Assembly: GCF_016756775.1 (NCBI RefSeq)
Contig: NZ_JAERMU010000005.1
Location: 124,001-188,000, forward strand
Origin: Dryocola clanedunensis subsp. sulfonylureivorans
GTDB lineage: Bacteria > Pseudomonadota > Gammaproteobacteria > Enterobacterales > Enterobacteriaceae
Length of the DNA: 64,000 nucleotides
Reading direction: 5' to 3'
The translations under genes were made by a program, and so were the position numbers. Shown here piece by piece: positions 11,466 to 43,616 of the stretch (position 1 is the first letter of the stretch; every line of letters begins with the position of its first letter). The notes under the pieces were generated by a model. That model saw only the letters and a list, made by a program, of their open reading frames with translations. It was not told the DNA's origin and ran no database searches.

Positions 11466-11485
11466 AAGGCCAGCTCTGCTGGCCT
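11466..11485 (+). terminator. asnS terminator hairpin, first copy (lacks T tract)
   Basis: AAGGCCAGCTCTGCTGGCCT forms a GC-rich stem 18 nt after the asnS stop but is followed by G and the small element instead of a T run. It is identical over 20 nt to 11626-11645. Confidence 0.7.
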
Positions 11486-11486
11486 G

Positions 11487-11625
11487 AGACTGATGACAAA
11501 CCTAAAGCGAATGAATTTCGCCAGCATCTCACCGAATAAATAACAAGGAAAATCAATTCATTGATTTTCGCCTGCTTACCACAAAGAAGGAAAAACCACG
11601 CTTTTTCCTTCTTTGTCAGCAATCT
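11487..11625 (+). mobile_element. 139-bp terminator-inserted miniature element, copy A
   Basis: This non-coding element begins AGACTGATGACAAA and ends with the inverse of AGATTGCTGACAAA, giving 14-bp terminal inverted repeats with two mismatches. Inside are a small palindrome AAATCAATTCATTGATTT and, near the right end, a perfect 15-bp hairpin (ACAAAGAAGGAAAAA, loop CCACGC). Copy C differs at one position and copy B at about four. It is flanked by two copies of the asnS terminator hairpin. No ORF of its own is credible, so it would need a transposase acting in trans. I cannot assign it to a named family from memory. Confidence 0.8.
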
Positions 11626-11651
11626 AAGGCCAGCTCTGCTGGCCTTTTTTT
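11626..11651 (+). terminator. asnS terminator, second copy with T tract
   Basis: The same 20-nt hairpin as 11466-11485, here followed by TTTTTTT. This copy should be the functional terminator after insertion of the element. Confidence 0.85.
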
Positions 11652-13343: not shown

Positions 13344-13369
13344 AAAAACAGGGCTCAGGCCCTGTTTTT
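13344..13369 (+). terminator. ompF terminator, first copy
   Basis: AACAGGGCTCAGGCCCTGTTTTT at 13347-13369 forms a GC-rich hairpin followed by five T, about 30 nt after the ompF stop. The same 23 nt recur at 13509-13531. Confidence 0.8.
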
Positions 13370-13507
13370 GATTGCTGACAAAGAAGGAAAAAGCGTGGTT
13401 TTTCCTTCTTTGTGGTAAGCAGGCGAAAATCAATCAATTGATTTTCCTTGTTATTTATTCGGTGAGATCCTGGCGAAATTCAATCGCTTTAGGTTTGTCA
13501 TCAGTCT
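13369..13507 (-). mobile_element. 139-bp terminator-inserted miniature element, copy B (inverted)
   Basis: The reverse complement of copies A and C, with about four substitutions against copy A over 139 bp. Terminal repeats and the 15-bp internal hairpin are intact. It lies between two copies of the ompF terminator, so the hairpin of the host gene has again been duplicated. Its orientation relative to the host gene is opposite to that of copy A at asnS, showing that insertion is not orientation-bound. Confidence 0.8.
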
Positions 13508-13508
13508 G

Positions 13509-13533
13509 AACAGGGCTCAGGCCCTGTTTTTTT
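13509..13533 (+). terminator. ompF terminator, second copy with long T tract
   Basis: A repeat of the ompF hairpin (13509-13531 identical to 13347-13369), here with seven T. It would catch read-through past the first copy and the element. Confidence 0.85.
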
Positions 13534-14863: not shown

Positions 14864-14894
14864 AAAAAAAGAGCCGCTTTTGCGGCTCTTTTTG
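14864..14894. terminator. Bidirectional terminator between aspC and gloC
   Basis: AAAGAGCCGC-TTTT-GCGGCTCTTT with A and T runs on both sides works for aspC on the plus strand and gloC on the minus strand. Confidence 0.88.
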
Positions 14895-38135: not shown

Positions 38136-38161
38136 AAAAAAACCGCATCGAATGATGCGGT
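38136..38161 (-). terminator. aroA terminator, distal copy with long T tract
   Basis: Read on the minus strand: ACCGCATCATTCGATGCGGT followed by seven T. It repeats the hairpin at 38304-38326 with one change in the loop. Confidence 0.85.
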
Positions 38162-38164
38162 TAC

Positions 38165-38303
38165 AGACTGATGACAAACCTAAAGCGAATGAATTTCGCC
38201 AGCATCTCACCGAATAAATAACAAGGAAAATCAATTCATTGATTTTCGCCTGCTTACCACAAAGAAGGAAAAACCACGCTTTTTCCTTCTTTGTCAGTAA
38301 TCT
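38165..38303 (+). mobile_element. 139-bp terminator-inserted miniature element, copy C
   Basis: It differs from copy A at one base (T for C in the right terminal repeat). It lies between two 23-nt copies (one mismatch) of the aroA terminator. Relative to aroA, which runs on the minus strand, the element is inverted, as copy B is relative to ompF. No coding capacity. Confidence 0.8.
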
Positions 38304-38326
38304 AAAACCGCATCGGATGATGCGGT
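38304..38326 (-). terminator. aroA terminator, proximal copy with short T tract
   Basis: ACCGCATCATCCGATGCGGTTTT on the minus strand, 10 nt after the aroA stop; the T run is cut to four by the element. Confidence 0.75.
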
Positions 38327-43584: not shown

Positions 43585-43616
43585 TACGGGGCAATTTACT
43601 TGCCCCGTATTTTTAT
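43585..43616 (+). terminator. ycaO terminator
   Basis: ACGGGGCAA-TTTAC-TTGCCCCGT followed by ATTTTTAT, 47 bp after the ycaO stop. Confidence 0.9.

Follow-up and report, generated by a model that had tools for sequence, protein, structure and literature searches.

The terminator hairpin of asnS occurs twice in the window (the whole 64,000-nucleotide stretch of Dryocola clanedunensis subsp. sulfonylureivorans DNA analysed here), once on each side of a small element, and further copies of this element lie between duplicated hairpins at ompF and aroA. This raises the question of how an element can insert at a terminator so that the entire hairpin is left on both sides of it, and which transposase would be responsible. 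The features of the window that bear on this question are as follows (coordinates, strand, description):

11467 to 11485, no strand: asnS terminator hairpin, left copy, AGGCCAGCTCTGCTGGCCT; a single hairpin in all five congeners
11486 to 11626, plus strand: non-autonomous element, asnS copy (from the sequence and boundary placement)
11627 to 11645, no strand: asnS terminator hairpin, right copy, with the T-run retained after it (from the sequence)
13347 to 13366, no strand: ompF terminator hairpin, gene-side copy; a single hairpin in five congeners
13368 to 13508, minus strand: copy at ompF with 98% identity; one end base is altered and 13368 is an approximate boundary
13509 to 13528, no strand: ompF terminator hairpin, far copy, with T-run
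14868 to 14891, no strand: empty hairpin 3' of an aminotransferase gene; the site in congener G003 has the element between two hairpins
38140 to 38162, no strand: aroA hairpin, left copy; a single hairpin in five congeners
38164 to 38304, plus strand: copy at aroA/cmk with 99% identity
38305 to 38326, no strand: aroA hairpin, right copy
43586 to 43608, minus strand: empty hairpin ACGGGGCAAGTAAATTGCCCCGT; the site in congener G002 has the element between two hairpins

Extent of the element at asnS

The first-pass annotation described a 139-bp element with 14-bp ends and a duplicated 20-nt hairpin. All of these are present where it placed them, although the sizes needed adjusting: the asnS copy is 141 bp long (11486-11626), its imperfect terminal repeats are 15 bp (11486-11500 and 11612-11626), and the duplication is the 19-bp palindrome AGGCCAGCTCTGCTGGCCT. 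Boundaries were placed by script in 44 of 56 full-length copies under the assumption that the duplication is symmetric about the hairpin dyad, so that symmetry is built into the placements; the independent check is where the right hairpin copy starts relative to the 139-bp unit. It started one base after the unit in 33 of the 44 copies, directly after it in 6 and two bases after it in 3, and two placements (L005 and L030) were plainly off. The 12 copies without a placement had indels, long hairpins, an inverted hairpin, divergence or a missing side. Among the 33 one-base copies, the upstream target base was not A in five, and in four of these five the base before the right hairpin mismatched the target. 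Autonomous insertion sequences (IS; see below) as a rule carry a C first and a G last, outside the 14-mer (exception: L442, which starts with T). The element was therefore taken as 141 bp. The first base is C in 42 of the 44 placed copies and G in the asnS copy. The element is non-autonomous, being too short at 141 bp to hold a transposase gene. No Rfam model matched the window between 11400 and 11700 at its gathering score. The interior (11547-11616), together with relatives of the element, holds two palindromes kept across genera, one of them with compensatory changes.

Copies across the genome and their flanks

The genome contains at least 41 long matches to the element (107 candidates, 40 scored), and the terminal 14-mer pattern occurs 78 times vs 0 for its reversed control. 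We took 64 loci, comprising 56 full-length copies, seven partial query matches (two of which, L060 and L061, are diverged 139-bp copies) and two with an end only; further copies may exist. Matching hairpins in both flanks exceeded the flank-similarity threshold in 51 of the 56 full-length copies, compared with 12 of 5,000 control positions, which may themselves include flanks of neighboring copies. The paired flanking hairpins are not due to chance. Five copies fell below the threshold: the left hairpin is absent in L038, L046 and L047, L044 has two diverged hairpins, and L015 is the second element of a tandem and has lost its right hairpin. Runs of T or A like those of terminators (five or more T in the ten bases after the right hairpin, or five or more A in the ten before the left; L015, L038, L046 and L047 excluded) accompany 48 of 52 copies and are present on both sides in 28 of 52. 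By a simple ORF rule, 20 of the 56 copies lie between convergent genes, 27 between co-directional genes (19 pairs on the element's minus strand and eight on its plus strand) and one between divergent genes, while eight have a gene on one side only.

These counts broadly bear out the expectation that other copies would also sit in terminators with flanking duplications. Gene identities of asnS, ompF, aroA and cmk were confirmed with NCBIfam, and the ompF and aroA sites each duplicate their own hairpin, in agreement with the first-pass annotation, which had called the flanking hairpins there gene-specific. Its description of the target as a hairpin plus T-run held for the hairpin, but the T-run is sometimes absent and a minority of copies lie outside hairpins. 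A few MITE copies of this minority carry 7-9 bp direct repeats (L060 and L061 in this genome, L318 in a Dryocola stretch), which may mean that the enzyme also accepts ordinary duplex DNA as a target, cutting it with a short stagger. A related element in genome G021 (L275) likewise lies outside any clear hairpin and has direct repeats of 7-9 bp.

Some copies have unusual arrangements. Two elements in tandem (L015/L020; C2:273590-273890 of this genome) share hairpins, and a second element begins in L035; in both cases a duplicated hairpin seems to have been reused as a target. At L041 (C1:139323-139459) the loop is inverted, the right-hand hairpin reading as the left one in reverse complement.

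Empty sites carry a single hairpin

If insertion duplicates the hairpin, sites lacking the element should hold one hairpin, as had been predicted. This was the case at the asnS, ompF and aroA sites of five congeners (15 of 15, read by eye; the asnS 20-mer of G004 is identical) and at two reciprocal sites that are filled in a congener (G003 and G002, respectively) and empty in the window. Three IncC plasmid sites allowed a comparison letter for letter over 100 and 60 flanking bases, and at all three the left flank, one hairpin and the right flank reproduced the empty record exactly. Two further records were also filled and are uninformative on this point. The duplications in these three pairs (AGGCGCTGACGCGCCT, AGGCGGCCTAAGCCGCCT and AGGCCAGCAATAGCTGGCCT) are 16, 18 and 20 bp for stems of 6, 7 and 8 bp, each stopping one A-T pair outside the G-C stem.

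Relatives in other genomes

Relatives in Klebsiella and Providencia, in which the last 80-96 nt are conserved, had a hairpin on both sides in all five regions examined (four sites). Exact matches to the core of the element came from 17 stretches, including Citrobacter, Serratia, Buttiauxella, Cedecea and Dryocola; similar hairpins flanked the element in 10 of the 15 with both flanks visible (by eye), the exceptions without paired hairpins being L307, L309, L310, L311 and L318. One core match lies in a Chryseobacterium assembly, where contamination is possible. In genome G043, elements that share these ends but look different in their interiors measure 68-269 bp, and duplicated hairpins were seen in at least eight of the 21 loci viewed (L332, L334, L340, L343, L344, L348, L350 and L272); L335 and L342 have none, and the remaining loci are partial or ambiguous. 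A covariance model search over the order, filtered so strictly that copies are lost, returned matches in three of 197 genomes.

No match to the element was found in phage records or Escherichia coli genomes. Viral contigs containing the terminal 14-mer were set aside as chance-like matches, and the core of the element occurred in two stretches from viral contigs. One IMG/VR contig classed as viral (L331) has a copy of the element with hairpins on both sides.

An IS1182-family insertion sequence has the same ends

A full-length IS of the IS1182 family, 1.56-1.61 kb long and with the same ends, is likely the autonomous partner of the MITE. Its ends read CAGAYT(G/A)NTGACAAA or near, and it is present in other Enterobacterales and in Vibrionaceae. 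All four proteins scanned (L374, L375, L439 and L441, the last from Salinivibrio kushneri) matched the IS1182 model NF033551 at 495-514 bits (cut-off: 270) and contained the Pfam domains DDE_Tnp_1_6 and DUF772. Across 392 genomes of the host's family, an IS1182 transposase was found in 31 at 1e-20 and scored above the cut-off in 14. Both ends occurred 1.4-1.6 kb apart in eight of 37 loci (L374-L410), namely L374, L375, L376, L383, L385, L389, L392 and L404; L387, with a doubtful end pair, was excluded. Since several IS1182 loci, including L377-L382, lack these ends as a pair, the IS with MITE-like ends represent one subgroup of IS1182.

Exact hairpin duplications of 17-24 bp flank four of the eight chromosomal IS (L374, L375, L385 and L389); L392 has an imperfect pair, and L376, L383 and L404 have no matching hairpin pair. 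The hairpin duplicated exactly at L385 (G421) has no T-run, and a hairpin alone may therefore be enough as a target. A further 20 regions included L411, in which both ends are present but the two hairpins differ. On plasmids, at least 80% of the IS is present in 16 records, and 12 plasmid regions were examined (11 of those 16 plus one weaker match). Nine regions, representing eight sites, have exact duplications of 16-28 bp; the exceptions are L433, with two different hairpins, and L431, whose ends could not be placed. In L432 (CP053580.1), an IS1182-type IS lies between inverted flank copies (148 of 150 bp identical), which is not a direct duplication. The IS at L404, L411 and L433 have intact ends and differing hairpins, an arrangement that recombination between copies could produce. 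In all, whole-hairpin duplication is exact at 12 distinct IS sites (16-28 bp), three of them with exact empty sites, and the full-length IS with the same terminal repeats that the first-pass annotation had proposed looking for does exist. Apart from the exceptions named, MITE and autonomous IS share the same target and the same duplication.

Similarity between the asnS MITE and the IS is confined to the terminal repeat (14-16 bp in common; 14 of 14 bp with one end of the L392 IS). A MITE of G043 has 19 bp in common with an IS end. An IS1182 transposase above the cut-off was not found in the draft genome of the host or in five congeners (G000-G005), where G002 and G004 gave weak partial IS1182 matches lacking the ends. 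Exact pairs of the terminal repeat 0.5-4 kb apart were absent from the host genome and, among the matches listed, from 22 other genomes, and E. coli genomes contained no near match to the IS. The autonomous copy was found solely through the IS1182 family search. DDE_Tnp_1 (PF01609) was also considered as a partner and rejected: its 18 matches, in eight of 10 genomes, had no end pair at any locus and included three single weak end-like matches.

Duplication length follows the hairpin

The first-pass annotation gave 20-25 nt for the duplications. They are indeed hairpin-sized, but the range is wider, at 16-32 bp over MITE and IS, and varies with the hairpin. Duplications measured 18-26 bp in 42 placed MITE copies and about 30 and 32 bp in L040 and L034, respectively, which lay outside the script placement. 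In 48 of 52 copies, one to three A/T bases separate the element from the outermost G/C of the left hairpin. Pairing of the stem could extend beyond the cut in 27 of the 44 placed copies, showing that the position of the cut does not always coincide with the outermost base pair available. Duplication length was correlated with the length of the G/C-bounded hairpin (rank correlation of 0.73 for 24 MITE copies; 0.54, P = 0.07, for 12 IS), a relationship that is partly built in, as hairpin and duplication overlap. The first duplicated base was A in 24 of 24 MITE copies, hand-picked from the 56, and in 12 of 12 hand-listed IS; L051, and L016 in one copy, start with another base. Because that base is usually A, any sequence preference is confounded with terminator composition. 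The targets have no common sequence across sites.

Proposed mechanism

MITE and IS have common 15-bp ends and duplicate whole hairpins, empty sites hold single hairpins, and the length of the duplication follows the hairpin. We consider it highly probable that the asnS element is a MITE of an IS1182-family IS whose transposase targets hairpins, mostly those of intrinsic terminators, and duplicates the entire hairpin. A DDE transposase joins 3' ends to target 5' phosphates. On either strand, the bond under attack becomes the 5' edge of the duplication, which in an extruded cruciform would be the 5' foot of the stem-loop. The target hairpin would be extruded as a cruciform or single-strand stem-loop, and each of the element's two 3' ends would attack the 5' foot of one stem. 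At a four-way junction these feet would lie close to each other whatever the stem length, which would explain duplications of 16-32 bp. Gap repair would then copy the stem-loop to both sides. The MITE would be moved in trans by the IS transposase, which may have been lost from the host genome or never been resident there. As no above-cut-off transposase was found in this genome or the five congeners, mobilization in trans is argued from the shared ends and shared behavior.

With moderate confidence, we further propose that the IS1182-family DDE transposase reads DNA secondary structure, attacking the two 5' feet of a cruciform so that the duplication is the resident hairpin (16-32 bp). It would thereby realize a pathway that, in the parts of the literature available to us, had previously only been drawn as an alternative. 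Insertion would keep terminators intact, and several Enterobacterales MITE families with different interiors would have spread in this way. Each transcript would meet a hairpin lacking a U-tract, then the element, then a second hairpin with its U-tract. Judged from this layout, termination of the host gene should be retained after insertion, as the first-pass annotation had assumed in calling it an insertion "without harm".

Alternative explanations

Four other explanations were weighed against structure-directed insertion. A DDE transposase might make a staggered cut of about 20 bp on linear duplex, preferring A/T flanks and recognizing no structure. Such a preference would fit the A that opens the 24 hand-picked MITE and 12 IS duplications, and the majority of lengths fall within 18-24 bp. 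However, lengths from 16 to about 32 bp track the stem, most directly as 16, 18 and 20 bp for stems of 6, 7 and 8 bp; the rank correlations (0.73 for 24 MITE copies; 0.54, P = 0.07, for 12 IS), though partly built in, point the same way, and the targets have no common sequence, making a fixed stagger quite unlikely. Tandem terminators that predate the insertion have next to no probability: they are known in bacteria, but the idea is refuted at the sites tested by the single hairpins at 15 of 15 congener sites, two reciprocal sites and three plasmid pairs.

The identity of the enzyme can also be questioned. The two conserved interior palindromes, one with compensatory changes, and the single Y1_Tnp gene of the host genome might suggest mobilization by an HUH (Y1) transposase acting through internal palindromes, as in RAYT/REPIN systems. 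Against this, a search for Y1_Tnp (PF01797) found no gene in the copy-rich congeners G001-G005, elements with the same ends and other interiors still lie in duplicated hairpins, and insertion of the IS200/IS605 type proceeds without target duplication, so we regard this as very improbable. Less easily dismissed, though still unlikely, is that another transposase with similar ends and the usual 7-9 bp duplication moves the MITE of this genome, which the IS1182 group merely resembles. The lack of an above-cut-off IS1182 gene in the host genome and five congeners and the non-hairpin copies with 7-9 bp repeats are in its favor; yet MITE and IS have the same 15-bp ends and the same whole-hairpin duplication, a G043 MITE and an IS end agree over 19 bp, and PF01609, the one family covered by this search, was not found in the MITE-rich congeners G001 and G005.

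Relation to known systems

Members of the IS1182 family in Staphylococcus (IS1272, TnSha1 and TnSha2) are described, in the parts of the reports available to us, as targeting an inverted repeat, often a terminator hairpin, by structure and not by sequence (PMC4923244, PMC5678879). The transposase family and the kind of target are thus the same as in the present IS group. The outcome differs: IS1272 replaces the hairpin (Wan et al. 2017, PMC5678879) and TnSha1 partly deletes hairpins (Furi et al., PMC4923244), such that in these portions of the reports IS1272, TnSha1 and TnSha2 delete or replace the hairpin with no target duplication, whereas the present element keeps and duplicates it. Duplication appears there as a hypothetical pathway b in a model figure and not as an observed result (Wan et al. 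2017, PMC5678879). The available parts of PMC5678879, PMC2267715, PMC4923244 and PMC10969869 contain no report of an IS1182 element observed to duplicate a whole hairpin, and a search of the literature text accessible to us for six terminal 14-mers gave only matches judged to be chance. Relative to these parts of the literature, the kind of target is already known for the IS1182 family, and what is new here is the outcome, duplication instead of deletion, together with the MITEs.

ISKpn6 and other IS1182 elements (about 1.5-1.9 kb) share the transposase family. By our own comparison, four of them, including ISKpn6, have the tip GAGNCTG or one close to it (GAAGCTG at one end of L223), which resembles the (C/G)AGNYTG found here, although this motif is short and the terminal repeats are otherwise different. 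At the four copies of these elements examined (L371, L372, L373 and L223), inspection by eye revealed no duplicated hairpin. For IS1182, the direct repeats given in IS tables range over 0-60 bp. REPIN/RAYT and ERIC sequences (the latter compared by their general description) are, like the present element, small, palindromic, mostly intergenic and present in many copies. REPIN/RAYT differ in that a Y1 transposase was not found in the five MITE-rich congeners, and in the DDE-type ends and target duplication seen here. The IS1202 family, in the part of its description available to us, also shows site-directed insertion, in some cases beside XerC/D sites (PMC10132070); the targets here are instead hairpins with no shared sequence.

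Implications

The target duplication is usually taken to be an invariant trait of a transposase; in the present case its length depends on the hairpin at the target. The natural pairs of empty and filled sites and the small size of the IS make structure-directed integration directly testable. If true, this mode of insertion would explain how tens of copies have come to lie at the 3' ends of core genes such as asnS, ompF and aroA with a hairpin and U-tract remaining, and would link an unnamed repeat family to a known family of transposases.
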